Shown here piece after piece: positions 17,662 to 34,025 of a stretch of 34,574 nt of DNA; position 1 is the first letter of the stretch; the number at the start of each line of letters is the position of its first letter. The notes under the pieces were generated by a model. It searched no databases, was not told where the DNA came from, and saw nothing but the letters and a program-made list of their open reading frames with translations. A program made the position numbers and the translations under genes. Location of the stretch: positions 1 to 34,574 of the forward strand of contig JAJRPG010000007.1 of NCBI GenBank assembly GCA_024280855.1. The letters run 5' to 3'. This DNA comes from Planctomycetota bacterium. Lineage in GTDB: Bacteria; Planctomycetota; Phycisphaerae; UBA1845.

Positions 17662-19599
17662 TTATGGACAGCTTGGTACGCAGGTACCGGTCAAGCAGCT
17701 TGTAGCACCAAACCCAAAATCGCCACTGGCAAATGCTATGACTTCCCTCAAGATATCGTTACTTGCGATGAGGCCATTTGGAATTTTAGCGTCAGTGTCT
17801 ACGCGAGAAATATGAGGTGCGGAAACGATCAATTGGAATTTCTGCACTACCGCGACAATATCGCTAGCTGTTACAAACCCTTCCGGAGCTGACCACGCTC
17901 CGCCAGCAAACGATCCCACAAGATCGCCAAATTGTCGACCAGCCGTAAACTGAGGCGGGGTCGTAAATATCGATAGCGACGGCGAGAAAGTAGAATCGTC
18001 CGCTGAGGCGTCGATTATGTATTCATTCCCCGGCACGACTTCGCAGCCACGGATGTGAATGACCGAATCGGTCCACACGCAAAACTCCGCAACCTGTACT
18101 AACTCGCTTAATTTGCCATCTACACCAGCGTCTTGCAGCGCACAGCTAACATACCAAGGCGTACTTGACCCCACACGGGTCACTCGTAACGCAATAGCCT
18201 GGCCAGGATTCGAGCTTGGGTCAATGGACAGATACCGATCCTTAGTAATATCGTGAGGCGCAGGCGGAGATAGTGGCGGTACTAAAATATCGTTACAGTT
18301 GAACGATGTGCTTCCTAACGATAACTCTGCAGGCGTCGGTGGTGGACGAGAAAATACGCCGACACCGCCAAGCCCCATCGAACTCGTGATGGAAGATGGC
18401 GAAGCCGCTAGCGTAGACATTTCTACATAACCAATGCGCGACCAGGATGGGTCTATGCCTTGCGGCGTGAAATTAGACCCACCAAAATTTGCGATAATGC
18501 CATTGCTGTTATCAATGCCGCCCTCGTTTAGTTCTGGAAAACCTGCAGAATGAACAAGCGATGTAGCTTGAAAAACAGTGGGGTTAAAGGATAAATCTAC
18601 ATACATGCCCGTGACGCCAGTGTTGACAACACCAACATCACTAACCCACAACTCTACAACGAATGTCCCTGGTATACTGCTTGATTCACAAATACGACCA
18701 GGCAACATGCCAGGCTGATTGCTTACATCGACGGCGCTAGGAGATACGAAAGGGATCAATTGCAAAGCAACGTCCGTAAAGCTTTGACCGGCAGCCCATG
18801 CCATCGCGTTGGTTAACATCTGATCGCCGTCAGAAGTCGCATCCCAATATAAACTACTAACATCGCTGGACGGCGGGTAAAAACCCAGATCAACGCGCAG
18901 ACCGGCAAGGTCTTCTCGATAGGCGATAAGCGGCGCGCCATCATCCCACTGGGCGACGATCACACTCCCGCTAGCCAATAACAATGTTGACGGGCGAGCG
19001 CTTAACAATCCACCGTCAAATGCTAAAACGCCATTCATAAGAGCGTGAGAAGGCATGCTAATGCCACCTAAGCTAGCTGGACCTGCCACATTTTCTAATT
19101 TAGGAACGATGACATCGTAGCCATCGGTCTCCCAACGGCCTGCTACATATCTTCCCGAAATGCTACTCGTGTTAGCAAACACAGCCATGACAACACCGCC
19201 ACCACTGTCAACGTAGTCCGCTAGATTGTCCCCCAGGGTAACGGCATCCAGAAAATCCAAATTGCTCCAAACAAGTACAGCGTCATACAATTGTAAAGTT
19301 GGCAGCGTAGGTGTCATCAACCCGGCATGAATGATGTCTACACTGCTGAATAGACCAGTAGCTAGGAGCTTACCACTGACGTCGGTAAACAAAGCATCTG
19401 TGACATTGGCCGCAGCAGAAGCGACGATAGCAATATCGGCGCCGCCAGCAGTGCCAAACTGAAAAGTCTGAAAACTTTCTCTCGCACCGTCTGGAGCAGC
19501 CGCTTGCGTCACATGCCCCATCGACATGACGACCAATAGCATCGTTAGCCAAGCGTTTGTATTATGTTTGTTCTTGCTTCCCATAACCCTAAATATCAC
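17662..19599 (-). CDS. Secreted protein with GATase-like N-domain, cohesin-like and dockerin-like modules
   Basis: A protein of 645 aa, last gene of the secreted four-gene operon. A signal peptide covers about residues 6-34 (MLLVVMSMGHVTQAAA). Residues about 50-270 look like a Rossmann/class-I glutamine-amidotransferase-like fold (YDAVLVWSNLDFLDAVTLGD, GGGVVMAVFAN) with no visible catalytic Cys-His pair, so probably binding rather than catalysis. A cohesin-like beta-sandwich follows (VELWVSDVGVVNTGV, MYVDLSFNPTVFQATS), similar to one in the 1428-aa protein. The C-terminal 60 residues (GFVTASDIVAVVQKF ... GLIASNDILREVIAFASG) form a duplicated dockerin-like element. The frame starts at a GTG at 19599, 8 nt after the DUF1501 stop; the ATG at 19584 is an alternative. 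Function unknown. Confidence 0.8.
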   Translation of the reverse strand: MIFRVMGSKNKHNTNAWLTMLLVVMSMGHVTQAAAPDGARESFQTFQFGTAGGADIAIVASAAANVTDALFTDVSGKLLATGLFSSVDIIHAGLMTPTLPTLQLYDAVLVWSNLDFLDAVTLGDNLADYVDSGGGVVMAVFANTSSISGRYVAGRWETDGYDVIVPKLENVAGPASLGGISMPSHALMNGVLAFDGGLLSARPSTLLLASGSVIVAQWDDGAPLIAYREDLAGLRVDLGFYPPSSDVSSLYWDATSDGDQMLTNAMAWAAGQSFTDVALQLIPFVSPSAVDVSNQPGMLPGRICESSSIPGTFVVELWVSDVGVVNTGVTGMYVDLSFNPTVFQATSLVHSAGFPELNEGGIDNSNGIIANFGGSNFTPQGIDPSWSRIGYVEMSTLAASPSSITSSMGLGGVGVFSRPPPTPAELSLGSTSFNCNDILVPPLSPPAPHDITKDRYLSIDPSSNPGQAIALRVTRVGSSTPWYVSCALQDAGVDGKLSELVQVAEFCVWTDSVIHIRGCEVVPGNEYIIDASADDSTFSPSLSIFTTPPQFTAGRQFGDLVGSFAGGAWSAPEGFVTASDIVAVVQKFQLIVSAPHISRVDTDAKIPNGLIASNDILREVIAFASGDFGFGATSCLTGTCVPSCP

Positions 19600-19607
19600 T
19601 TTCAGCT

Positions 19608-21140
19608 TTAACGTTGTAGCCGTTGCTGTTTACTTATCCGCCCGGACGTACGTGCGGCGGAATTACTGATAACGCCTAACTCACCCAACACGGGCGGTGG
19701 CTGCTCAGCCGAGGTCTTGAAAATGACGTTATCAATGACCGACTGATCGATTAACAATCGTTTTCTAAGCACCTCGCTATATACCGCTCGATAGTCAATG
19801 GTGGTGCGAATGGCATCTGAATCAATAGTCAAAGCAGGATCAAGCCCAGCCCAGCCATCGACGCCGCCTAGTGTCTTTTTCGCGTAGACGCCGCCGTTGA
19901 TATTTCCGCCCATGAGCATCATCAACCCGCCATTGCCATGATCCGTGCCCGCGTCTGCATTTTCGTTTATCTGCCGGCCAAACTCTCCCTGACAGACCAA
20001 CGTGATTCGATGCCAGTCGTCTTGAAGATCAACACGAAACGCCGCGAGGTTTTGACTAATATCTTTCAAACGGACGTACATGTTCCCATCTTTGAAAGTT
20101 CCAATGTCAGCATGATTATCCCAGCCGGTGCGGTCGGTATATACGACTTCAACATTCACACCGCCGCGAATCAAAGCCGCAGCATTTAATAATCGCTGCC
20201 CAAATGATGAGTTTGTATATCGCGCGTCCGGGTGAGGAGCGATAGACACCTGCTGAAGCAAATCGATAATTTCAAACGTATTTAACACGCCACTCTTTAG
20301 TGGGTCTTGAGTCTGGGCTGCGTACCTAGCCGACAATATGTCCGTGCGTTGCTGAGCGGTGGCTGAACTCCCCGGCAAGACCACTTCGCCAAGCGCCTGA
20401 AACGCCAGCGTCTTTTCGGCAAAAGCAAGCATTTTAGGTACTAAGCGATTAGAAGAAAAAGCCGCACCGCGAAGTGGACTGCCCAAGCTTGGGGCGATGC
20501 TTAAATATCTCGCCAGCCATCCCGTGATATCGGTCTGGGGCTGATTCGGAGTACCAAATTCTATCAAAGCCTCTGCAGAAAAGTGCGAACGATTGGTATC
20601 CGGTGAGCCAGCCGCTGGAATAAATGCGACCTCCCCCGCCTGAAAAAATTCGTAGATAGTATTTCGATCTTCAACACCCAGATATTCCCGATCGCCGTAT
20701 GCTTTGTTGATACCAAACGCATCACTCCCCACAGTCCCTAAATCCAGACATCTATTAGCGCCGAGGTCAGGATCATTGGCATCCGGCGGATTGATCCCGA
20801 TAGTAGGCCTCAGTCCGTTCGGAAATAACTCCGCCCCAGAATTATAAGGGGCCATGTAAAGCCAGGGATCGCTATAAGGAATAATTTGAGAAAGTAGATC
20901 AGGGCCTCCACGCCAAAAACATGATACGAGAATGTCAGGTTGAGCGCCTCCCTGGGCAGAAGCCTTTGATAGCGATATCCCCGGAAGGACATGAGACGCA
21001 GCCACTACGCCAGCCGCAGCCGCGGCAGATTGCCCCATGAATGCGCGGCGCGTAATCTCGCGGTATTCGTTACAAGCCTTCCGATCGTCACGATATTCGT
21101 CGTTGCGATCGAGCGGTTCTATATGTCGCGGCTTATCCAT
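19608..21140 (-). CDS. Tat-exported DUF1501 family protein
   Basis: A protein of 510 aa. The N-terminus has a twin-arginine signal (EITRRAFMGQSAAAAAGVVA, then VLPGISLSKASAQ). The body matches DUF1501, a family related to the alkaline-phosphatase/sulfatase fold and abundant in planctomycetes: ILVSCFWRGGPDLLSQIIPY at the start, DRTGWDNHADIG with the family's conserved W-D-x-H, LVCQGEFGRQINENADAGTD, and HGNGGLMMLMGG. Presumed location: periplasm, folded in the cytoplasm before export. Biochemical role unknown. It is 64 nt downstream of the DUF1800 gene, its usual partner, and 8 nt upstream of the next gene, so the operon is tight. The start ATG is clear. Confidence 0.92.
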   Translation of the reverse strand: MDKPRHIEPLDRNDEYRDDRKACNEYREITRRAFMGQSAAAAAGVVAASHVLPGISLSKASAQGGAQPDILVSCFWRGGPDLLSQIIPYSDPWLYMAPYNSGAELFPNGLRPTIGINPPDANDPDLGANRCLDLGTVGSDAFGINKAYGDREYLGVEDRNTIYEFFQAGEVAFIPAAGSPDTNRSHFSAEALIEFGTPNQPQTDITGWLARYLSIAPSLGSPLRGAAFSSNRLVPKMLAFAEKTLAFQALGEVVLPGSSATAQQRTDILSARYAAQTQDPLKSGVLNTFEIIDLLQQVSIAPHPDARYTNSSFGQRLLNAAALIRGGVNVEVVYTDRTGWDNHADIGTFKDGNMYVRLKDISQNLAAFRVDLQDDWHRITLVCQGEFGRQINENADAGTDHGNGGLMMLMGGNINGGVYAKKTLGGVDGWAGLDPALTIDSDAIRTTIDYRAVYSEVLRKRLLIDQSVIDNVIFKTSAEQPPPVLGELGVISNSAARTSGRISKQQRLQR

Positions 21141-21204
21141 AATCTTAACAACTCCAAATGTTCATCAACCATCAATCTCTGCAACCCATAATCCGCATCT
21201 ATGA

Positions 21205-22827
21205 TTAGATGAACTGATACGTCGGCAAACTCATAGCCAACCCAAGCGCTTCCTTTAGTCTTGATTCAGAAGCGGTGCCAAAGCCAATAAAATCTTGGAT
21301 GGCTTCAACTTCTTTTTGCGTCATTCGCCCGCCAGTCAACAACTCATTCAACCCCTGGGCTTGCGTGCCTGGCGCCGAGGCATTGACTGAAATCAACAAG
21401 TTAGTCACGCTAAAAATCACGACATCAGTAAGGCTGCCGCGGGATAAGGCGTCTAGATAAGACCATCTGGGAATAGCCCCTCCTTCCGACCAGGTCTTGC
21501 TATCAAAAGGCCCGTTAGGAGGCCCCCAGAAGTTCGGGTGCATTCCCATGCTGTCCATATAGAAACTAAGCAGCGATAAAAAACCAGGGCTGGATACAGA
21601 CAAATCTGCACCAACAGCTCTTAGCGATGAAGTTGTCAAATCAAGTGGGCGCCGGAACTTTGGCGTCGAAGCATTCGTCAACACATCTTTCTGCAACATG
21701 ACCGAAAGCATAGAACGAATGTCGCCAATCGGATTACTGTTTAAATAAGTCCACTTCACCATCTGAACAACATCTTCAGGCGGGTCATAAGAATAATTGA
21801 TGCCGCCCAGAAAATGCCTGCAAAGCTTCCTGGAAATATAGTCCGCCGTGTTAGGATGCTCGGTTAATATCGTAATCGCTTCAATGCCTTCGTTCATCCC
21901 GGCTGCGCCACTTTGCCCTTGAATCAAATTCCCCAGCAGCATTTTATCGCCGGTGTCATGTGTGCCGGTGATAAAGCGGAAATCGCCATACTCATAAGTG
22001 CCACCGCTGCAGCCGCCAGCGCTCAAACAAACCGACCAACCAGTGAGAATCCTGGCTAACTCTTCAATGTCCGTTTGTGTGTATCCATTATCTACGCCAA
22101 GCGTATGAAGCTCCATCACCTCACGCGCGTAATTTTCATTCGGAGCAGAGGCTACATTGGTATTATTGTTCAAGTAAAATAACATAGCTGCGCCCTGAGA
22201 CGACGCCTGAATTAGTTCGGGCACCGAAGTCATGGCGTTGGCAAGCACCTTATCTCTTAAGAAGGCCCACAGGATAAAACGCTGAGTCGTAGAGCTATTG
22301 ATGTCAATATTGAGATGCTGGTTCCAAAACTGAAACATGCGGTAGTACAATTGTGCTCGACCATATACCTGCCACATGATTTGAATGGTCGTAGCTTGTC
22401 GCAGCGGATTAAAGGACATATTCATGGGGTTGTAAGCGATCAAAATCTCTAGAGATGACATATTTTGAATGTCATAATCGACAAGTTTCGCTTGCAGCGC
22501 CGGATCATTCGCGCCAATGAGAGTCTCATAATTCAACTGCTCTGCTAAATAAGCGTCATAGCCTAAGCTCTCGGCATACTGGTAATCAGCTAAACTGAAT
22601 CCGCCCGTGATTCGGTCAATCAGCAACACCAAGTCTGGATCAAAACCAGCGCCAGCAACATTCGAAGACGCAGATGTCGCAGCCTTAGCTGAGACTGCTT
22701 CCGACAGGAATCCCGCTGCGCCGCTAAGGGCAGAAACCCCGAGAAACTGTCGGCGCGAAGATGCATCACCTGATCCATTATTGTCGCTCGTCAATGGTTG
22801 CATTGTCTTTGATTTCCCAACATTCAT
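21205..22827 (-). CDS. Tat-exported DUF1800 family protein
   Basis: A protein of 540 aa. A twin-arginine signal is seen (SSRRQFLGVSALSGAAGFL, then EAVSAKA). DUF1800 landmarks are the all-helical early part (LLIDRITGGFSLADYQYAES), WQVYGRAQLYYRMFQFWNQH, the conserved NENYAREVMELHTLGVDNGY block, LARILTGWSV, and KLCRHFLGG. DUF1800 proteins are exported, of unknown chemistry, and are nearly always paired with DUF1501, as here. The start codon ATG at 22827 follows the 1428-aa gene by only 40 nt. No promoter was seen in that gap, so co-transcription is likely. The length is usual for the family and no break was seen. Confidence 0.92.
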   Translation of the reverse strand: MNVGKSKTMQPLTSDNNGSGDASSRRQFLGVSALSGAAGFLSEAVSAKAATSASSNVAGAGFDPDLVLLIDRITGGFSLADYQYAESLGYDAYLAEQLNYETLIGANDPALQAKLVDYDIQNMSSLEILIAYNPMNMSFNPLRQATTIQIMWQVYGRAQLYYRMFQFWNQHLNIDINSSTTQRFILWAFLRDKVLANAMTSVPELIQASSQGAAMLFYLNNNTNVASAPNENYAREVMELHTLGVDNGYTQTDIEELARILTGWSVCLSAGGCSGGTYEYGDFRFITGTHDTGDKMLLGNLIQGQSGAAGMNEGIEAITILTEHPNTADYISRKLCRHFLGGINYSYDPPEDVVQMVKWTYLNSNPIGDIRSMLSVMLQKDVLTNASTPKFRRPLDLTTSSLRAVGADLSVSSPGFLSLLSFYMDSMGMHPNFWGPPNGPFDSKTWSEGGAIPRWSYLDALSRGSLTDVVIFSVTNLLISVNASAPGTQAQGLNELLTGGRMTQKEVEAIQDFIGFGTASESRLKEALGLAMSLPTYQFI

Positions 22828-22867
22828 ATCCTAGCCACTTTGCTACAAACGATTCAACTTCTTAAAT

Positions 22868-25800
22868 TTAACGATCTATCCGCTCAATACTCTTGGTAGA
22901 CAAATACGGATGTAAGACTTTCACCAACGCAGGATCAATCGATCCCACGCCAACGCCAGCCATACCATGCTCGCGCGGAATAATTGTCAACGAATGGCCA
23001 ATCAACATATCCTTTATCGCCTTGAAGCGAATCGTCCCAAACGTAGCCCGTTCGCCCACACCCAAACCAGCGTCCAATGTTGCACCGCCAAACCATTGCA
23101 CAGCCTTCGCCCGCACAGTGCCCGAAGCAAACAGCGGGAAGGCTGCGTCCGTCGCCGCGTTAATGACCGCAACCTGAGTCGTATCGAACATGACATCCAC
23201 AAAAACGCCAGATACACCTAGTGCCCCAGCCGATTCATCGCGGATAAACAATGAGACTTCAAATTCTTCGCCCGCAGCCACAAATGGCTTATCAGTCTCC
23301 CAGGAAATACTCAAAGCAGGCGACGCGAGAATTGAGTTAGATAATCGGCTAATTCCGCCACTGCTTTCAGGAGGCGACACAGCGGCTATTTTGTCTCTTG
23401 TTCCGTCTCCAATAAGGGGCATACCAGTGTCACACTTACGACACGCTGGTATGTCCGCCTGGCTAACAGATGCGCACGATTGCAACCATCCTGCGGCAAA
23501 CCAGCCTACATCACCCGCGTCAACAAAAGCGCTACAATCGAAATCACATGCACGATCAAACCCGGCATCCCCCAAGGCAGTTAGCCAACACCCTGCGAAA
23601 ATCCCGGAATCCCCGGCGTTGATAAACAAATCGCCATCCAGGTCGTAAACACAACTGGATTCAACGCCGAAGGTTTCAGCATCCCCAGAAACATCTGCGG
23701 GATTGACCAAGCCATTACCGACTGTTGAAACGCCTGACGGACCAACATCAACCGTGATCGTAGTACTAGCTGGGCAATCCTTAGACTGTAAATCAACAAC
23801 GGCAATCCGCCGCCATTCTGGCGCAATACCCACGCCGGACGCAGTTAAATCTACGCCGCCAAGATTAGTAATTGTACCCGCAGTGTTATCAACAGTTCCA
23901 TCGACGTTTGATGTAAAAGGTGGACGGTGGTCAATAGTCGAAGCCTGGAAGGCCGTACTGTCAAAAGTCACATCGACAAAAACCTCAGCTAAGCCGGTGT
24001 TGACCGCCCCGCTATCGGTAGCCCAGATTTCAATCACAAACGGATCCCCCAATGGGAACACGCTATCAGAAACTGGAGGTGCCATTGCGGCGTCACCAGG
24101 CCCGGCGACATTACGTACGACAATCGCTAATTCTACATCAACACCTTCGCACTCATCGGGAATACCGTTGGTGTCCACATCAAGACTGAACCCGCTGGTA
24201 ATGTCGCAACTATCTGCTAGGCCATTACCATTACAGTCTTCGCATTCGTCTGGAATCATATTGGTATTACAGTCACTCGATGCGGGTCTGAACGTGATAT
24301 CGAATGCCGTCACCAATGACGTAGACTGAGGCAAAATCTTAATAACTGCACCTGTAACGCTATCCAATTCCACAACTGCATTTAGCAACGAATGGCCAAG
24401 ATACAAATTGCCATTGGGCCCGAACTCCAAAGGCGCCAGAAAAAAGCTACCGTTACCGCCAAGGTCTGCCAGCAAGATTCGATCGAACACACCCGTCGTA
24501 CCGTTGTAGACCTGTATATTATTAGAACCCGTATCTGTCACATACAAATCGCCGCCAGGCCCAAATGTTAAACCGACAGGATTGACCAGCGTTCCGCCGC
24601 TTACAAAGTTGCCGATGACAGTTCCGGTCACGCCATCTATCTGCACGATCTCACCATTGGTAAAATCAGCGACGAAGATATTGCCCGCCGAGTTAAACTC
24701 TAGAGAAAACGTAGCGGGAGGAGCCGCTGGATTAAGCTCAGAAAATTCTCCAATGGGTGTGCCTGTTATACCATCAAATTTGACAACCTGCCCATTTGTA
24801 TTGAGGGCATAAAGGTCTTCATCCGGGCCAATTTTCAAATCGATGATTCGTGGAATAACAACGCCGGTAAAATCGCTGATCGCAGCCCCCGTAGAGCCAT
24901 CAAACCTTAAAATTGACTGAGAAGTAAAATCACTGACCAAGAGATCGCCCCTTGGCGAGAAGACAATGCCCGCTGGCGATAAGAGGCCGCCAGTCGTCGC
25001 CGATATAAATTCGCCCAGCAAAGAACCAGACACTGGATCATATTGCAATACGTTTCGAGACGTAAAACCCGTCACAAATAAACCGCTGGTCCCAGCTAAG
25101 TTGCATTGGTCGGGCGCGCCATCCCCATTGCAATCAGTCTCTAATCCGCCAGAAATATCGCACGCATCCAAAATGCCGTTGCTATTACAATCTCTGAACC
25201 CCTCACATTCGTCGGGGATGGCATTCAAATTACAATCCGGACTTGTCGCGTTAGCGATGTCGCAGGAATCAGCTAAACCATTTCCATTACAATCTTCGCA
25301 GTCATCAGGAATGGAATTGGTATTGCAATCGCTGCTTGTGCCACTACTCAGATCGCACTCGTCTGGAATGGCGTTTGCATTGCAATCCTGACTAACCTGG
25401 AACGACTTGAATTCCAATGTAATCGAATCCAGCGTGCCTTCATCAAACTCCGAACCGTCGTACACGCGAATGGTCCAATCGCCGCATTCAGATTCACCCG
25501 CAAAAGTAGATAAAGTCCCAGGCCAAGCCGTTGCGCCAGCGTCCGGATGATATTGCCCTATACCCGAATTCGCATCTTCAATGCTAACGGCAAATCGATC
25601 ATCTAGTTCTAAGTCCAAAGATGAATCGCTTAGCCCGCAACATTCGCCGCCACTACAGAAAGGGTCTAACTCAGCATAACCAATCCGACTAAACAATGTC
25701 ACCTCGCTGCCGCTGGGACTAACCAACACAGCGACCATGTCGCCAACCCAGCTATGGGTCGCTTGCAGGCTAACCGTCAAATTTTCGACCGTGCCACATT

Positions 25801-27154
25801 GCCCTGCAAAATCTACAGGAATCGTTTGAGATGTAAAAGTTGATCCGCCAGCAGCACAATCTGGAATCGTAACGCCAGGAGAACCGAAGTTCACCGTAGC
25901 TGTTTTGCCTTGATCGCCGGGAACTAAATCAAGATCGTCAGGAATCAGGTTTGTATTACAATCTAACTCGCATTCATCGGGAATACCATTTGAATTTAGA
26001 TCGGGACTCTGCATCGTTAAGATGTCGCAAGGGTCAGCTATGCCATTCGTATTGCAATCTGGCTGACACTCATCTGGCACATTGTCTCCATCGCAATCAG
26101 ACGCGCCGCCGAGAACATCGCAAACGTCAGAGGTACCATTGGTATTGCAATCTGGATCGCACTCGTCAAAAACGCCGTCGTTATCGCAATCAGGCAATGA
26201 CTCGCATTCATCGGGAATAGTGTTGTTATTACAATCCGGCAATCCTTCGCAAGAATCCGGGATCGTATTCAAATTGCAGTCAGCCGCCCCACCAATGATG
26301 TCACAATTGTCTGGGATGCCGTTACCGTCGCAATCCAGCTCGATGGCTCCAGCCAATTCGCATTCGTCAACGATACCGTCATTGTCGCAATCGGCCAGCG
26401 ACTCACATTCATCAGGAATTCCATTGCCGCCGCCACCCAGGTCAGATAGGTACGCCTGCAAATCGGTATAATTATCGGGCGTCAAGTTGAACGTGCCGCC
26501 AGTATGAAACACGCATCCGCTGGTTTTCCATTGATAGGTATAGCGACTACGACCGCGATGATTCGGCGCGGTCCCACCAAAACCACCAAAGCCATGACAA
26601 AGCGCGCAGTTTGCATTGTGAATCAACTGGCCAAAGAACATGCTGCCAACATTAACGCCCCCACCGCCGCAATCGACCACAACCTGATTGATTAAATCGC
26701 ATACATCAGATGCGCCATTGGATTGGCAATCCGGGTCGCATTCGTTCAACACACCATCGAAATTGCAATCTAGCGCGAAATTTAGCGAGCAATTAGAATC
26801 AAGTTCGCATTCGTCCGGTGTACCATTATTATTGCAGTCATCCAAAAATTCGCAGATGTCAACGATACCGTTCGAATTGCAATCGGTCGCCGCATTGAGA
26901 GTGCAAATGTCGCCTGGAAACCATGTTCCATTTTGGCTTTCGCAATCAATCTGAGTTAAAGCTTCGCTGCATGAAGTGGGTAAACAGCATGCACCTGTCC
27001 CCACATTGCTCAGGTCAGGGCTAGCTAGAAGCTGAGAGCCTTCCCGCGACGGAGTCTTTCCGAGAAGCATTTCGCCGCGAGACATGCTGCCATGCCCAAC
27101 AAATGTCAGCGAAATAGCTATAAAAACATAGAACCGACAATTACTTCGAGTCAT
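22868..27154 (-). CDS. Giant secreted mosaic scaffold with haem-c site, P-domain, propeller, cohesin- and dockerin-like modules
   Basis: A protein of 1428 aa, first gene of the operon. Signal peptide at 1-27 (FYVFIAISLTFVGHGSMSRG). In order: a Cys motif GACCLPTSC ... at about 53; many thrombospondin-3-like acidic repeats of the form DCNxNGIPDEC (about 90-400, 585-690 and 955-1000) that probably bind calcium; a cytochrome-c-like insert with CALCH (Cys183, Cys186, His187) and a C-terminal helix LTPDNYTDLQAYLSDL; a P-domain (about 417-585); an NHL-like propeller (about 690-955, repeating motif SPRGDLLVSDFTSQSILRFD); a cohesin-like domain (about 1003-1138); a duplicated dockerin-like element (about 1166-1230, DLDGDLFINAGDSGIFAGCW); and a second cohesin-like domain (about 1276-1428). 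A ribosome-binding site AAGGGGA lies 8 nt before the ATG. Likely an extracellular or surface scaffold; any redox role is speculation. Confidence 0.85.
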   Translation of the reverse strand: MTRSNCRFYVFIAISLTFVGHGSMSRGEMLLGKTPSREGSQLLASPDLSNVGTGACCLPTSCSEALTQIDCESQNGTWFPGDICTLNAATDCNSNGIVDICEFLDDCNNNGTPDECELDSNCSLNFALDCNFDGVLNECDPDCQSNGASDVCDLINQVVVDCGGGGVNVGSMFFGQLIHNANCALCHGFGGFGGTAPNHRGRSRYTYQWKTSGCVFHTGGTFNLTPDNYTDLQAYLSDLGGGGNGIPDECESLADCDNDGIVDECELAGAIELDCDGNGIPDNCDIIGGAADCNLNTIPDSCEGLPDCNNNTIPDECESLPDCDNDGVFDECDPDCNTNGTSDVCDVLGGASDCDGDNVPDECQPDCNTNGIADPCDILTMQSPDLNSNGIPDECELDCNTNLIPDDLDLVPGDQGKTATVNFGSPGVTIPDCAAGGSTFTSQTIPVDFAGQCGTVENLTVSLQATHSWVGDMVAVLVSPSGSEVTLFSRIGYAELDPFCSGGECCGLSDSSLDLELDDRFAVSIEDANSGIGQYHPDAGATAWPGTLSTFAGESECGDWTIRVYDGSEFDEGTLDSITLEFKSFQVSQDCNANAIPDECDLSSGTSSDCNTNSIPDDCEDCNGNGLADSCDIANATSPDCNLNAIPDECEGFRDCNSNGILDACDISGGLETDCNGDGAPDQCNLAGTSGLFVTGFTSRNVLQYDPVSGSLLGEFISATTGGLLSPAGIVFSPRGDLLVSDFTSQSILRFDGSTGAAISDFTGVVIPRIIDLKIGPDEDLYALNTNGQVVKFDGITGTPIGEFSELNPAAPPATFSLEFNSAGNIFVADFTNGEIVQIDGVTGTVIGNFVSGGTLVNPVGLTFGPGGDLYVTDTGSNNIQVYNGTTGVFDRILLADLGGNGSFFLAPLEFGPNGNLYLGHSLLNAVVELDSVTGAVIKILPQSTSLVTAFDITFRPASSDCNTNMIPDECEDCNGNGLADSCDITSGFSLDVDTNGIPDECEGVDVELAIVVRNVAGPGDAAMAPPVSDSVFPLGDPFVIEIWATDSGAVNTGLAEVFVDVTFDSTAFQASTIDHRPPFTSNVDGTVDNTAGTITNLGGVDLTASGVGIAPEWRRIAVVDLQSKDCPASTTITVDVGPSGVSTVGNGLVNPADVSGDAETFGVESSCVYDLDGDLFINAGDSGIFAGCWLTALGDAGFDRACDFDCSAFVDAGDVGWFAAGWLQSCASVSQADIPACRKCDTGMPLIGDGTRDKIAAVSPPESSGGISRLSNSILASPALSISWETDKPFVAAGEEFEVSLFIRDESAGALGVSGVFVDVMFDTTQVAVINAATDAAFPLFASGTVRAKAVQWFGGATLDAGLGVGERATFGTIRFKAIKDMLIGHSLTIIPREHGMAGVGVGSIDPALVKVLHPYLSTKSIERIDR

Positions 27155-28340: not shown

Positions 28341-31300
28341 ATGCACAGAAAATGCGAACGATTGTTTGGGCCCTGGTTCCGTTACCTTGTCGTGGCTACC
28401 GCGATAGTAGGTATAGCTACCTTGGCAGGCGAGGGGTCTGCCAGCGCAGGTAGCGGAGAAATTCTTAATGTCACAGCGATTCAATTACAGCTTGGCTCAT
28501 CTAATGATGCCTGGGCAGCGGACGCTGTTCGTATTCCGGGCGCGTCACCAGCGGCGGCCATTGCAGTGCCAATGACGAAGCATCCGCTTGTCTATTTTGA
28601 CAACGCTGGCCTAAAGCGCGTCAGTGTACTGGTTTATATGAACCCAACACTCACCAAGCAATCTGTGCAACGTAAGGGTGTACGCACTTTTACCGCGACC
28701 ATGAAAGGCACGGTAAAATATGAGTACGGGGCCGTTATGCCCAATGTACTCAACATTCGGGATTATCCTGAATCGCAGATTGACGCTTTGCGCAAAATGG
28801 CTGGAGTCTCCAAAGTTGAGCTGGACGAATACCATCCTAATGTAATTAGGTTAGACGAAGCCACGCCGCTTGTTCGCGGACTGCAAAGTCAACTGACGGC
28901 AGCCAATCTGCCATACGATGGCACGGGCATTCGCGTTTGCATCGTTGATACCGGTATCGACATGGACAATGTGATGTACGCTTCGCGCATCGATGCGGCG
29001 GCGAGTTTCGACTTTAACAACAACGACTCGAACCCTGACGATGATAATGGCCATGGTTCTCATGTGGCTGGTATCTCTGTTGGGGGCACGGGTATCACGG
29101 TAAACTTAGGATGCGACGGCGTCGAACCTCTACAAGGTATGGCTCCAAATGCCACGCTCATCGGGGCTAAGGTATTGAATTCCGCTGGTGGTGGTACTGA
29201 TAGTAACATCATCGCGGGCATCAATCACTGTGCAGACCAAAGCGCCACTGGCGGTCGGGCTGATGTAATTAACCTTAGTATTGGTACGGGCAACTTTACG
29301 GGTACATGCGACTCGCATAGTTGGGCAGTAGCTTCTAATAATGCAGTAGCTGCGGGTGTCGTGGTTGTGGCTGCTTCAGGTAACGAGTGCAACTCAAACT
29401 CAATGGGTTCCCCGGCGTGTGGCTCAAGCGTCATTGCCGTCGGTGCGACGTATAAAGCGGCGTATCCAAACTGCGAAGACGCGACATCAAACTTTAACTG
29501 GGGTTGCTGCACGAATAACAGCCCAGGAATCGACAGTATTGTTTGCTTTAGCAATCAAAGCGATTTGCTGGATGTGTCTGCCCCTGGTTCTGTGATTCTT
29601 TCGGCTAGCAACGCTGCCGGTGGAATGTCCCTGAGCAACAAAAGCGGAACCAGCATGGCCTCCCCAATGGTTGCAGGTCTTTCGGCTTTAATTCTCGATG
29701 CTGACCCAACACTAACGCCGGCTGAGGTTCGTCAGATACTTCGGGACGGAGCTACCGACATGGGCGCACCAGGGTTTGATCGCGCTTATGGCTATGGTCG
29801 AATCGACGCAATAAATACTTTGTCACTCGTGACACCGTGTATCAATAATACTGACTGTAATGATGGTGATGCTTGCACGACGGACGTATGTAATACGGGT
29901 ACATGCTCTAACACGCCGATCTCATGCCCAACTGGACAAACATGCAATGGCGGAGTTTGCGAAGGTCAAGGTGCCTGTTGTACGGGTACAGCTTGCGCCA
30001 TAGACAGTCCGAGCAACTGCGCTACAGCAGGCGGGTCATACTTAGGAGATGGCTCTGTTTGTGGCAGCGGTACGGCTGGTAATCCAACGATCTATTCTGC
30101 TGCTCCGGGTGTAGCTATACCTGATGGCGGTGGCGCTGGCAACGCAGCTACGGACACCATCAACGTCCCAGACACATTCACTATTGGCGACTTAAACGTT
30201 GATGTGACTATCAGTCATACATGGGTTGGCGACGTGACAGTAACTATATCTCACTTGGGCACAACTGTATCGATAGTCGATCGACCTGGTGTCCCAGGTT
30301 CTACTTATGGTTGTAGCTTAGACAACTTCAGCGGCATCCTCCTGGACGACGAAGGTACTGGTGGCACAATGGAAGCGCAGTGTGCCGCGAACCTGACATC
30401 TCCGCCTAATTATACCCCTAACAATTCTTTGTCAGCTTTCGACGGCATGGACGCAGCTGGCATTTGGACGATCACTGTATATGACAGCGTGTCAGCCGAC
30501 TCTGGTACCCTCAATAGTTGGTCCTTGCACATCGACGCTCAAGGATCAAATCCTTGTGTTGGCGGTTGCACGAACAATGCCCAGTGCGATGACGGCGTGT
30601 TCTGCAACGGTGCAGAAACCTGCGTGTCTACTGTTTGCGTGCCTGGCACGGTCGTAAATTGCAACGATGGCGTGGGCTGCACGGACGATTCCTGCAACGA
30701 AGCAACGACGAGCTGCGACAACATTGTCAACAACGCGAATTGTGACAATGGCCTATTCTGCGACGGTAGCGAAACTTGCGACGCCGCACTCGACTGCCAA
30801 GCAGGAACGGCTGTGAATTGTAATGACGGCGTGGGTTGCACGATGGTTGCGTGCAATGAAACCACGAATTCTTGCGACAATACGACGAACGACCTTGCCT
30901 GCGACGATGGCATTTTCTGTAACGGCGCAGAAACCTGCGACGCAGCATTAGATTGCCAATCTGGTTCAGCAGTAAATTGCAATGATGGCGTGGGATGTAC
31001 GGACGACTCCTGCAACGAAACGACCAACAGTTGCGATAACATCGTCAATAACGCAAATTGCGATAACGGCTTATTCTGCGACGGTGTGGAAACATGCGAC
31101 GCCGCGCTCGATTGCCAAGCAGGCACGGCTGTGAACTGCAATGACGGCGTAGGTTGCACAGACGATTCCTGCAACGAAGCGACCAACAGTTGCGATAACG
31201 TAGTCAATGACGCGAACTGCGATAATGGCTTGTTCTGCGACGGCAGCGAAACCTGTAACGCCGTTAGCGACTGCCAAGCCGGTAGTAATCCGTGCTTTGG

Positions 31301-34025
31301 CCAAGCGTGCGACGAGGGGACTAACACCTGTGTCGCTTGTGTTATCGACGGGGATTGTGATGACGGATTGTTCTGTAACGGTATCGAGGCTTGCGTGTCT
31401 AATACATGCGTCGGTGGAAACGCTGTCGATTGTAACGACGGCGTAGGTTGCACTACCGACTCCTGCAACGAAGGTACCGCTTCTTGCGATAATGTCACGA
31501 ATGATGCCGCGTGTAATAACGGGCTATTCTGCGACGGCGTCGAGACTTGTGATGCCGCTCTAGACTGCCAGGCTGGCGTCAGTGTTGATTGTAACGATGG
31601 CGTCGGATGTACGACGGATACTTGCAACGAGGCGACTAACTCGTGTGACAGCGTGGCTAACAACGCCGCTTGTGACAACGGATTGTTCTGTGATGGCGTG
31701 GAAACATGCGATGCAGCACTTGACTGTCAAGCGGGGATTTCCATTGACTGTAATGACGGCGTGGGTTGCACAAACGACGCTTGCAACGAAGCAACGAACT
31801 CTTGTGACAACACCGCGAATGATGCCAATTGTGGTAATGGCATCTTCTGCGACGGCGCCGAGACGTGTGACGCGATAAATGATTGCCAAGTTGGGGCCGC
31901 GGTCAATTGTAACGATGGCGTTGGCTGTACGACGGATTCCTGCAACGAAGGCACTTCGTCCTGCGACAATATCGCTAGCAATGCGGCGTGTGATGACGGC
32001 TTGTTCTGCAACGGTAGTGAGACTTGCGATGCTGCTCTCGATTGCCAAGCCGGGGCTTCTGTCAATTGTAACGACGGCGTTGGCTGCACGACAGATTCGT
32101 GCAATGAAGCGACCAACAGTTGCGATAACATTACAAGCAATGCAGCCTGCGACGACGGCGTGTTCTGCAACGGCAGTGAGACCTGCGACGCAGCGCTAGA
32201 TTGTCTAGCTGGTGGCGACCCTTGTCCTGGCCAAGTTTGCGACGAGGCTACGACTTCGTGTGTGGCTTGTAATATAGATGGCGATTGCGATGATGGCCTG
32301 TTCTGTAACGGCTCTGAAACTTGCGTAGCTAACGCATGTGTTGCGGGCACTGCAGTGAACTGTAACGATGGTGTTGGATGTACTTCTGATTCGTGCAACG
32401 AAGCGACGAACAGTTGTGACAATATCGCCAGCGACGCGGCTTGTAGTGATGGCCTGTTCTGCAACGGCGTTGAAACTTGTGACGCCGTGTTGGATTGCCA
32501 AGCTGGCACAGCCATCAATTGTAATGACGGCGTGGGTTGCACGACTGACTCGTGCAATGAGGCGACCAACAATTGCGATAATGTCGCCAGCAACGCAGCC
32601 TGCAATGACGGCTTATTCTGCAATGGTAGCGAAACCTGTGATGCCACGCTTGATTGTCAAGCAGGCACGTCGCCATGTACGGGTGGCCAAACGTGTGACG
32701 AGGGAACACAAACCTGCACGACAACTGGTTGCGTAATTGATGCAGATTGTGACGACGGTAATGCCTGCACGGTTGATACATGCACGGCTAGTGTGTGCAG
32801 TAACGACTGTGCCACAGCGGTATCGGCACTCCCATATTCTGAGAATTTCGATGCAGGATTAGGATTGTGGACCAATACGGCTGGCGACGTCTTTGATTGG
32901 ACCAGACGAAGCGGCACGACGCCATCGTCGAACACAGGCCCATCTGGTGATCATACATCTGGTAGTGGCTTCTATATGTATACCGAAACATCTTCGCCGC
33001 GTGCGGCAGGTGACACAGCTATATTTGAAGGACCATGTATGGACCTCAGTGGTGCGAGCAGTTCTACCATGACGTTCTGGTACAATATGAATGGTGCTTC
33101 AATGGGCACTCTGGACGCTGAAGTATCGTCCGACTGCGTAACCTGGACGAACGCATTCACATTGTCTGGCAACCAAGGCAACACATGGTTCCAGGCCACG
33201 ATTGATCTTACGCCATATGTTGGTGCATCATCGGTCAAGGTACGTTTCATAGGCACGCGAGGTAGCAGTTGGCAAGGTGACATAGCTATCGATGACATCG
33301 ACGTCACGATGGTAGCCGCAGCTAACTGCACGTTAGATGCTCAGTGTGATGATGGGAATGTATGCACCGACGACGCATGTATTGCTAATGTTTGTCAAAA
33401 TACTAACAACAGCATCGCATGTAACGATGGATTATTCTGTAATGGCGCAGACGTTTGCCAAAGCGGAACTTGCACACCAGTTACCAGTCCGGGCGTAGCT
33501 AACGGCACATTCGATAGCAGCGCTTCCTGGACTTCTCTATCAGGTGGCGGGGCCATTACATTCCCTGGCAACCTTAATGTAGTCGGCGCGGACGCAGGCT
33601 CTGCGAGCTTCACTATGGCGAGCCAAAGCGGTGTCACTGTTACCGGCGCTAATTTGGAGTTTGACCTGTTGAGTTATTCAAGTGGCGACACGGGCGGCTG
33701 GGACTATCCAGTCTTCCATCTTAACGGAACCTACTATGGCCTGAATTCAAACGGTACACTCGGTGCTACGACGACAGGCGGAAATGGAAACGGCGGCACG
33801 GTAGACAACGCAGGCCAAGTCACAGTGTCGATTCATTACATTGTGAACATTGACACATTAGCAGGAAACGCCGGCCCTCACACGATAGGCTTTGGTGTCC
33901 ATACTGCGGATGGCGGCTTTGGTGCGGGAACAGCCGTGTTCGATACGGCCATACCAGCAGGCGGAGCCATCGACCCATGCCCGGGCCAAACGTGTGACGA
34001 AGCCAATAATGTGTGCGTTCCATAA
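28341..34025 (+). CDS. Secreted subtilisin-like protease with P-domain, Cys-rich repeats and MAM-like domain
   Basis: A protein of 1894 aa. The signal peptide ends near residue 36 (GEGSASAG). An I9-like propeptide (about 115-168) is followed by a peptidase S8 domain (about 185-500) with an intact triad: Asp203 in CIVDTGIDM, His238 in NGHGSHVAG, Ser438 in SGTSMASPMVAG. A Cys motif GACCTGTAC (about residue 550) recalls the 1428-aa scaffold. A P-domain follows (about 580-730). Then come eleven 53-residue units of the Dictyostelium CTDC-like type (about 773-1444), Cys-rich linkers, a MAM-like domain (about 1494-1658), another CTDC-like unit and a final beta-rich domain (about 1717-1870). No C-terminal anchor or LPXTG was seen. 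An extracellular protease likely stabilised by many disulfides; its substrate is unknown. Confidence 0.93.
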   Translation: MHRKCERLFGPWFRYLVVATAIVGIATLAGEGSASAGSGEILNVTAIQLQLGSSNDAWAADAVRIPGASPAAAIAVPMTKHPLVYFDNAGLKRVSVLVYMNPTLTKQSVQRKGVRTFTATMKGTVKYEYGAVMPNVLNIRDYPESQIDALRKMAGVSKVELDEYHPNVIRLDEATPLVRGLQSQLTAANLPYDGTGIRVCIVDTGIDMDNVMYASRIDAAASFDFNNNDSNPDDDNGHGSHVAGISVGGTGITVNLGCDGVEPLQGMAPNATLIGAKVLNSAGGGTDSNIIAGINHCADQSATGGRADVINLSIGTGNFTGTCDSHSWAVASNNAVAAGVVVVAASGNECNSNSMGSPACGSSVIAVGATYKAAYPNCEDATSNFNWGCCTNNSPGIDSIVCFSNQSDLLDVSAPGSVILSASNAAGGMSLSNKSGTSMASPMVAGLSALILDADPTLTPAEVRQILRDGATDMGAPGFDRAYGYGRIDAINTLSLVTPCINNTDCNDGDACTTDVCNTGTCSNTPISCPTGQTCNGGVCEGQGACCTGTACAIDSPSNCATAGGSYLGDGSVCGSGTAGNPTIYSAAPGVAIPDGGGAGNAATDTINVPDTFTIGDLNVDVTISHTWVGDVTVTISHLGTTVSIVDRPGVPGSTYGCSLDNFSGILLDDEGTGGTMEAQCAANLTSPPNYTPNNSLSAFDGMDAAGIWTITVYDSVSADSGTLNSWSLHIDAQGSNPCVGGCTNNAQCDDGVFCNGAETCVSTVCVPGTVVNCNDGVGCTDDSCNEATTSCDNIVNNANCDNGLFCDGSETCDAALDCQAGTAVNCNDGVGCTMVACNETTNSCDNTTNDLACDDGIFCNGAETCDAALDCQSGSAVNCNDGVGCTDDSCNETTNSCDNIVNNANCDNGLFCDGVETCDAALDCQAGTAVNCNDGVGCTDDSCNEATNSCDNVVNDANCDNGLFCDGSETCNAVSDCQAGSNPCFGQACDEGTNTCVACVIDGDCDDGLFCNGIEACVSNTCVGGNAVDCNDGVGCTTDSCNEGTASCDNVTNDAACNNGLFCDGVETCDAALDCQAGVSVDCNDGVGCTTDTCNEATNSCDSVANNAACDNGLFCDGVETCDAALDCQAGISIDCNDGVGCTNDACNEATNSCDNTANDANCGNGIFCDGAETCDAINDCQVGAAVNCNDGVGCTTDSCNEGTSSCDNIASNAACDDGLFCNGSETCDAALDCQAGASVNCNDGVGCTTDSCNEATNSCDNITSNAACDDGVFCNGSETCDAALDCLAGGDPCPGQVCDEATTSCVACNIDGDCDDGLFCNGSETCVANACVAGTAVNCNDGVGCTSDSCNEATNSCDNIASDAACSDGLFCNGVETCDAVLDCQAGTAINCNDGVGCTTDSCNEATNNCDNVASNAACNDGLFCNGSETCDATLDCQAGTSPCTGGQTCDEGTQTCTTTGCVIDADCDDGNACTVDTCTASVCSNDCATAVSALPYSENFDAGLGLWTNTAGDVFDWTRRSGTTPSSNTGPSGDHTSGSGFYMYTETSSPRAAGDTAIFEGPCMDLSGASSSTMTFWYNMNGASMGTLDAEVSSDCVTWTNAFTLSGNQGNTWFQATIDLTPYVGASSVKVRFIGTRGSSWQGDIAIDDIDVTMVAAANCTLDAQCDDGNVCTDDACIANVCQNTNNSIACNDGLFCNGADVCQSGTCTPVTSPGVANGTFDSSASWTSLSGGGAITFPGNLNVVGADAGSASFTMASQSGVTVTGANLEFDLLSYSSGDTGGWDYPVFHLNGTYYGLNSNGTLGATTTGGNGNGGTVDNAGQVTVSIHYIVNIDTLAGNAGPHTIGFGVHTADGGFGAGTAVFDTAIPAGGAIDPCPGQTCDEANNVCVP
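30657..32672 (+). repeat. Eleven tandem units of a 159-bp coding repeat
   Basis: Inside the subtilase gene, eleven units of about 53 codons each begin with NCNDGVGC and contain the NSCDN, GLFC[ND]G and ETCDAALDCQAG blocks. Units 4, 9 and 11 are extended by a second Cys-rich segment (PCxGQxCDE ... DGDCDDGLFCNG). The extensions divide the array into blocks of 4, 5 and 2 units, suggesting a higher-order duplication. Third codon positions differ among copies, so the protein is more conserved than the DNA. Confidence 0.9.

Follow-up and report, generated by a model that had tools for sequence, protein, structure and literature searches.

The question raised by this locus is whether a pair of exported proteins, of the families DUF1800 and DUF1501, is held at the cell surface by cohesin- and dockerin-like proteins encoded beside it. 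The pair lies in a four-gene operon on contig JAJRPG010000007.1 of a Planctomycetota bacterium of the lineage UBA1845 (genome of 4.56 Mb in 112 contigs), and the window analysed is that one entire contig of 34,574 nucleotides. The reading that we favour, and to which we give about an even chance, is that the operon encodes an exported, surface-displayed hydrolase pair on a cytochrome-bearing scaffold resembling the planctosome discussed below. The four genes, listed in their order of transcription, are as follows.

P0004, 22868..27154, minus strand: exported mosaic protein of 1428 residues
P0003, 21205..22827, minus strand: DUF1800 protein with a signal of the twin-arginine translocation (Tat) type
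P0002, 19608..21140, minus strand: DUF1501 protein with a Tat signal
P0001, 17662..19599, minus strand: exported protein of 645 residues

A preliminary description of the window, made from its letters, had given this layout correctly, with exact coordinates of the open reading frames (ORFs) and spacers of 40, 64 and 8 nucleotides on a single strand. Its family assignments also held, P0003 matching PF08811 (E 1.1e-87; 295.4 bits against a cut-off of 26.1, residues 69-538) and P0002 matching PF07394 (E 1.6e-21; 77.4 bits against a cut-off of 27). The description had spoken of two giant mosaic proteins exported by the general secretory (Sec) route, which fits P0004 but not P0001 with its 645 residues, and the Sec signals of both were read by eye and not with a predictor. 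Tat export was confirmed for P0002, which matched TIGR01409 over the cut-off, while P0003 offered only a sub-threshold match to the Pfam TAT model and an SRRQFLG motif seen by eye.

A search of 150 relatives returned seven near full-length matches to P0004, own genome included, from four genera and with 52-100% identity over the matched part, and a DUF1800 gene adjoins all seven. The six complete loci (own genome and five relatives, three genera) all keep the same order and strand with gaps of at most 88 nucleotides; at the seventh, from the fourth genus, the contig stops inside DUF1800. Because order and tight spacing recur in every complete locus, the four-gene operon is real and not a product of chance. 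Coincidental neighbours without a shared function could be argued from the promoter- and terminator-like sites in the window, which were no more frequent than in shuffled sequence, but this explanation is opposed by the order, strand and close spacing kept across three genera and by the 49-81% identity of the P0004 orthologues, and we consider it extremely improbable. Six further loci carry DUF1800, DUF1501 and a P0001-type gene; in five of them no P0004-type gene lies immediately upstream, and L064, the last of the six, starts inside DUF1800, so that its upstream side is not visible. Among the best 80 loci listed, the closest named relatives of the operon DUF1800 were metagenome-assembled genomes of Planctomycetota and Phycisphaerae.

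How far the association extends was surveyed with 119 DUF1800 ORFs, out of 137 matches (some of them fragments) in 70 of the 150 genomes; an earlier pass over the first 79 ORFs, with a narrower distance window outside which L099 then fell, had flagged 16 loci. A DUF1501 gene lay close downstream in 115 of the 119, and the DUF1800 of the window fell in one clade of 37 loci (support 0.997). Within this clade, 26 of 37 loci have a module resembling cohesins or dockerins, either on DUF1501 or on a neighbouring gene of the same strand, versus 1 of 82 outside it. Some of the profiles behind this count were made from clade members, and the loci are not independent; Fisher values overstate independence since loci within the clade share descent. 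When the dockerin profile was instead derived from proteins of the genome other than these, the counts were 17/37 and 1/82. All P0001-type genes (12/119 loci) and P0004-type genes (7/119) belonged to the clade. The observation made in the preliminary description is right and its interpretation supported in part: the coupling to cohesins and dockerins, for which it had suggested such a survey, stood within one clade and failed over DUF1800 loci as a whole, and a scaffold link as a property of DUF1800-DUF1501 pairs at large was rejected on the same counts. The genome's own second pair (L005:7226-11421) falls outside the clade, and none of its scanned neighbours bears such a module. It is followed by a gene of the glucose/sorbosone dehydrogenase family (GSDH, E 1.8e-52), and genes of similar length, as judged by length, follow the pairs in other loci of its DUF1800 group.

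The distribution of the module among the clade members is telling, as the module appears from profile matches to change its carrier. In six loci, all of them with P0004 present, the P0001-type protein bore a cohesin-like module, and in five it bore a dockerin-like one (with a weaker match in a sixth, L070). In nine loci (L087, L094, L099, L107 and L328-L332) a dockerin-like tail was fused to DUF1501 itself; four loci had the module solely on another neighbour, and one solely on a P0004 in view. In the tree, the branch that unites the window and L107 is poorly supported (0.208), so that one gain or several may underlie this pattern.

The modules of P0004 and P0001 on which these statements depend are given below, with percentages from hhalign.

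26369..26692, minus strand: c-type cytochrome-like module of P0004 (residues 155-262), with CALCH at 26594-26608 and candidate distal His217
25385..25942, minus strand: proprotein-convertase P-domain region of P0004 (PF01483, E 2.8e-10, over cut-off)
24275..25087, minus strand: NHL-type propeller region of P0004 (PF01436, E 3.4e-12, over cut-off)
23657..24145, minus strand: cohesin-like module 1 of P0004 (86.4% to Pfam-recognised cohesins)
23429..23659, minus strand: dockerin-like EF-hand pair of P0004 (76.6% to own-genome dockerins; no Pfam match)
22871..23287, minus strand: cohesin-like module 2 of P0004 (95.9% to module 1, 16.1% to cohesins)
18784..19482, minus strand: ThuA-like (class I amidotransferase-like) domain of P0001 (PF06283 sub-threshold in orthologues)
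18280..18783, minus strand: cohesin-like module of P0001 (91.2% to cohesins, 99.8% to module 1 of P0004)
17665..18267, minus strand: C-terminal module of P0001 with an EF-hand-like pair (39 genome matches)

Pfam and NCBIfam scans of P0001 and P0004 gave no cohesin or dockerin at E<=1, nor did the dockerin-like modules of either protein match the Pfam dockerin (PF00404) at that threshold when scanned alone, and because these scans gave nothing, profile comparison was used. For the cohesins the reference was a set of 29 Pfam-recognised cohesins of relatives. Against it a second alignment mode returned 84.2% for the P0001 module, 81.2% for P0004 module 1 and 2.6% for module 2, and six other segments of the two proteins, compared as controls, gave 0.9% or less in the comparison listed above. 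One orthologue (L055) also approached PF00963 (E 0.075), with 13.7 of the 24.1 bits needed and hence under the cut-off. Cohesin-like modules in P0001 and P0004 are thus fairly well supported by profile; in the orthologue alignment, L053 and L054 end without module 2.

For the dockerins the reference was 18 of the own genome's 22 Pfam dockerin matches, a comparison run after one with the DUF1501 tails had failed. The P0001 C-terminus gave 75.2%, close to the P0004 EF-hand pair, and controls gave 2.5% or less; four P0001-type genes from loci without P0004 in view reached 98.9% and four DUF1501 tails 97.3%. Against those four DUF1501 tails P0004 gave only 6.1% and the P0001 C-terminus only 0.1%, and against the four P0001-type dockerins only 4.7% and 0.1%. 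Dockerin-like modules in P0001 and P0004 are therefore moderately supported. A cohesin-dockerin-cohesin-like array gene with a gene for a smaller cohesin-like protein was seen elsewhere in the own genome (L061:997-4202) and in a relative (L062:3095-6476).

In P0001 the preliminary description had overlooked the ThuA-like domain. PF06283 found no match in P0001 itself and was matched under its cut-off in five of six scanned orthologues (four of five at E 1e-4 to 0.21, the sixth at 0.15); conservation within the family is highest over the first 270 residues, and the ThuA-like core is kept in 11 of 11 alignment rows. The last 201 residues behave differently from an operon-specific part, a candidate role that was rejected: at E<=0.001 the genome has 39 matches to them (own included), of which 35 reach E 2e-14 or lower, identity elsewhere in the genome is up to 70%, and an M28 peptidase (L005:1472-3055) ends in the same module. 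Among the operon loci this end is confined to the three of the own genus, and IPTL-CTERM-like ends stand in its place in three of nine scanned P0001-type orthologues, namely L055 and L056 and, outside the operon loci, L116 (in descending order of score, 18.6, 16.8 and 13.5 of 20.5 bits, all under the NCBIfam cut-off). The 39 matches and the IPTL-CTERM-like ends therefore indicate an anchoring or sorting part, as we infer, and not one that recruits DUF1800 or DUF1501. The module finishes in a CLTGTCVPSCP-like sequence and may be a previously undescribed tail for sorting or anchoring.

The same observations bear on a second explanation, in which the modules are generic parts, used by the lineage in many exported proteins, that serve sorting or wall contact, and P0001 and P0004 share an operon with DUF1800 and DUF1501 without assembling with them. 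The wide spread of the P0001 tail and the IPTL-CTERM-like ends agree with it, as do the 22 Pfam dockerin and two Pfam cohesin matches of the genome, none of which lies inside the operon. Generic parts would not, however, be expected to be nearly confined to one DUF1800 clade, with a single case among the 82 other loci, some of them from related and even the same genomes, and a dockerin-like tail on DUF1501 itself in nine loci is hard to explain by chance neighbourhood. We regard this explanation as possible, though short of an even chance.

Several further findings weigh against our favoured reading of a scaffolded pair. The likeness to cohesins and dockerins depends on profile comparison under Pfam cut-offs, the dockerin-like tails of DUF1501 included (best 22.0 of 22.9 bits in the four tails tested), and Pfam finds no cohesin or dockerin on P0003 or P0002. 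The partly clade-built profiles and shared descent behind the survey count belong here as well, and 11 of the 37 clade loci are without such a module nearby, some on short contigs. Over all loci the neighbouring scaffold genes are mostly absent, an outcome that the preliminary description had named as speaking against its proposal, with no P0001-type gene at 107 of 119 and no P0004-type gene at 112 of 119, counts that include some contigs cut short; for cohesin/dockerin modules the clade as a whole shows no such absence. The array pair of L061 and L062 occurs without DUF1800 or DUF1501 in the stretch examined. Finally, the P0001 tail is generic, and two genes bearing it lie at least about 5 kb from the second DUF1800-DUF1501 pair (L005), on the opposite strand and beyond the neighbourhood window scanned.

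P0004 has other modules too, of which the preliminary description had overlooked the cytochrome c-like module, the NHL region and the P-domain. The protein combines DxCxxNGIPDECE or DCNxNGIPDECE (TSP3-like) repeats, with 20 matches to a simple repeat pattern, with the cytochrome c-like module situated among them, P-domain, NHL region, first cohesin-like module, dockerin-like pair and second cohesin-like module. A sequence search of solved structures returned mainly NHL and other propellers for P0004 (NHL best E 2.8e-15 with an alignment profile) and a single cytochrome-domain row at E 0.47; the same search gave no match for P0001, DUF1800 or DUF1501.

Residues 155-262 of P0004 are read as a predicted one-heme c-type cytochrome. 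C183, C186, H187, W209, C214 and H217 are conserved in seven of seven orthologues, with the heme-motif cysteines of the L053 orthologue further apart (CxxxxCH), and an HPGG or HAGG histidine occurs in 8 of 10 fully displayed modules. The Pfam scores of the P0004 module itself stay under the cut-offs (18.5 of 27 and 17.9 of 21.3 bits for PF00034/PF13442), while small proteins found with it pass one (L292, 30.9; L304, 39.1; L305, 30.4 bits) and the large L293 does so narrowly (21.4 bits). Across 114 genomes of the order there were, besides the seven orthologues, 24 matches to the module with 36-46% identity in frames of at least 1250 residues (E 6e-20 to 1.1e-7), and weaker matches. DUF1800 and DUF1501 profiles found nothing in 15 stretches around other copies of the module, which adjoins 7 of the 119 DUF1800 loci, and a role as general companion of DUF1800 was rejected. 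In some large proteins (L293, L294, L298, L291, L301 and L302) the C-terminal module of P0001 occurs together with one like cytochrome c, or with a match at the edge of the latter.

The enzymatic side of the operon was approached through predicted structures. Members of the alkaline phosphatase superfamily are defined by a two-metal site and a Ser/Thr/Cys nucleophile. The P0002 model, predicted from a 40-row alignment (mean predicted local distance difference test score, pLDDT, 79.9), resembles nucleotide phosphodiesterases, alkaline phosphatases and sulfatases, with a best Foldseek E of 7.1e-5 and, by VIA, a best Z of 18.2 (rmsd 3.3, 247 aligned) and Z>=8 for 483 of 1000 chains. G78, D81, S185, H186, D341, H343, E386, D400 and H401 are invariant in all 40 rows. 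DUF1501 is thus predicted to have an alkaline-phosphatase-superfamily fold with conserved active-site-like residues. The DUF1800 model, built from 39 rows (pLDDT 85.8), is mostly or entirely helical; against the PDB it gave 92 matches at E<=10 and none at E<=0.001, and a second comparison gave a best Z of 3.1. The absence of a solved relative does not establish a new fold.

DUF1800 was in turn compared with an alignment of 17 PSCyt2-PSD1 proteins, taken from the 30 loci fetched after overlapping loci and the longer PSD1 proteins had been set aside; all eight members scanned had PSCyt2 and PSD1 over the Pfam cut-off. Two broad DUF1800 alignments matched it at 94.3% and 93.6%, collinearly over 366 and 358 columns, while the controls gave 0.2% (DUF1501), 0.2 and 0.3% (reversed), 1.2% (P0004 family) and, as best of 60 block shuffles, 15.7%. 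The DUF1800 Pfam model independently gave a match below its cut-off (E 4e-4) to a PSD1 gene (G063:C3, PSD1 E 3.2e-51) and one at E 0.0045 to L230; the PSD1 Pfam model found no match in P0003 at E<=1 and none in the own genome. By these profile matches DUF1800 is a remote homologue of PSCyt2-PSD1, a relation for which the part of the open-access literature covered held no report. P0003 is without CxxCH, and in the PSCyt2 row shown the CxxCH loop falls in a gap of DUF1800; of 30 short PSD1 loci, 11 have a DUF1501-type gene next to PSD1, or 10 of 27 once overlapping loci are counted as one place. Because of the profile homology, this gap and the PSD1-adjoining DUF1501 genes, the DUF1800-DUF1501 pair appears to be an equivalent of PSCyt2-PSD1/DUF1501 that lacks the heme.

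Electron transfer by the heme of P0004 would be sensible only if the DUF1800/DUF1501 pair has a redox role, which leads to a third explanation, a split redox complex in which the heme-less pair is served in trans by P0004, a surface substrate is oxidised and electrons pass to the cytochrome. The remote homology with its low controls, the sub-threshold match to G063:C3, the CxxCH gap, the DUF1501-type genes beside PSD1 and the cytochrome module kept in all seven P0004 orthologues are in keeping with it. Yet the narrow operon-clade DUF1800 alignment taken alone reached PSCyt2-PSD1 at only 61.5%, and heme is not constant in PSCyt2-PSD1 either, since CxxCH is absent from 6 of the 17 aligned proteins. 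The cytochrome module, moreover, accompanies so few of the surveyed DUF1800 loci, and its relatives sit in large proteins without DUF1800 or DUF1501 in the stretches fetched. On balance a split redox complex is unlikely.

Returning to the surface-displayed hydrolase pair, its steps could be envisaged as follows. DUF1501 would be folded before Tat export and work with DUF1800 as its all-helical partner, the two together hydrolysing an ester of the phosphate or sulfate type outside the cytoplasm. P0004 and P0001, exported by Sec, would place the pair at the surface, and their cohesin- and dockerin-like modules may join P0001 to P0004, or connect the two with further cohesin/dockerin proteins in the cell. 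P0004 would bring the c-type heme site, which could carry electrons, and the NHL region, and P0001 the ThuA-like domain. What the data themselves show is how the genes are ordered and that this order is conserved, the modules at the level of profiles, a predicted fold for DUF1501 and the association specific to the clade; surface location, contacts between the products, ester hydrolysis by DUF1501 and electron transfer by the heme are inferred. A bolder scheme would have the DUF1800-DUF1501 clade turned into a surface machine through three module carriers, here as a split heme-hydrolase in which P0004 takes over the electron transfer of the heme-less DUF1800, and we think it improbable.

In cellulosomes, cohesin and dockerin modules are carried by secreted proteins. 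The operon resembles them by analogy, in that its secreted proteins have modules that look like cohesins and dockerins. Unlike cellulosomes, its Pfam matches include no carbohydrate-active enzyme family, its modules stay under Pfam cut-offs, and no dockerin was found on its presumed enzymes. The planctosome, as far as its description was covered, is a hypothetical complex of peptidases with cohesins and dockerins in freshwater Nemodlikiaceae (PMC6461901). Shared with it, on the portion of that account covered, are planctomycete exported proteins with P-domains, TSP3-type repeats and cohesins or dockerins, and no evidence for cellulose degradation (PMC6461901); P0004 unites the P-domain (over the cut-off), the TSP3-type repeats and the cohesin-like module (by profile only) on one exported protein. 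According to the same portion, the anchor of the planctosome bears a lamin-tail domain and its cargo are peptidases of the M12B and M14 families, whereas the neighbours in the operon are DUF1800 and DUF1501, and the operon adds the cytochrome c-like module, the NHL region and the ThuA-like domain. Pfam found no lamin-tail domain in the four operon products at E<=1, the rest of the genome not having been searched for it.

Two other systems also pair a partner gene with DUF1501. PSCyt2-PSD1 (DUF1549-DUF1553) of the Planctomycetes-Verrucomicrobia-Chlamydiae bacteria is described, in the part of the source covered, as of unknown function and carbohydrate-related by context (PMC5615132), and in the loci seen here it too forms a partner-then-DUF1501 gene pair. 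It differs in that the heme site of the operon lies on another protein, P0004. DUF1800-DUF1501 pairs also occur at horizontally moved chitin synthase loci, which share the two-gene core and the Tat motif on DUF1501 with the operon (PMC5122149, as covered in part); there the partner is a chitin synthase, and the part of that paper covered mentions no cohesin/dockerin scaffold (PMC5122149).

Proteins of the DUF1800 and DUF1501 families are exported and widespread, and the literature, as far as covered, reports no tested function for them. The locus offers three handles on them, namely the fold class of DUF1501, the remote relative of DUF1800 in PSCyt2-PSD1 and the genetic link to cohesin/dockerin-type proteins. 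Should a scaffold indeed hold the pair, the range of cohesin-dockerin assembly would come to include a pair of enzymes with heme outside the cellulosome.

Outside the operon, a scan of the window for tRNA genes found none. The upstream neighbour on the plus strand (28341-34025) encodes a subtilase with a P-domain; it is divergent from the operon and 1186 nucleotides away from it. Its product has 1894 residues and numerous similar Cys-rich repeats.

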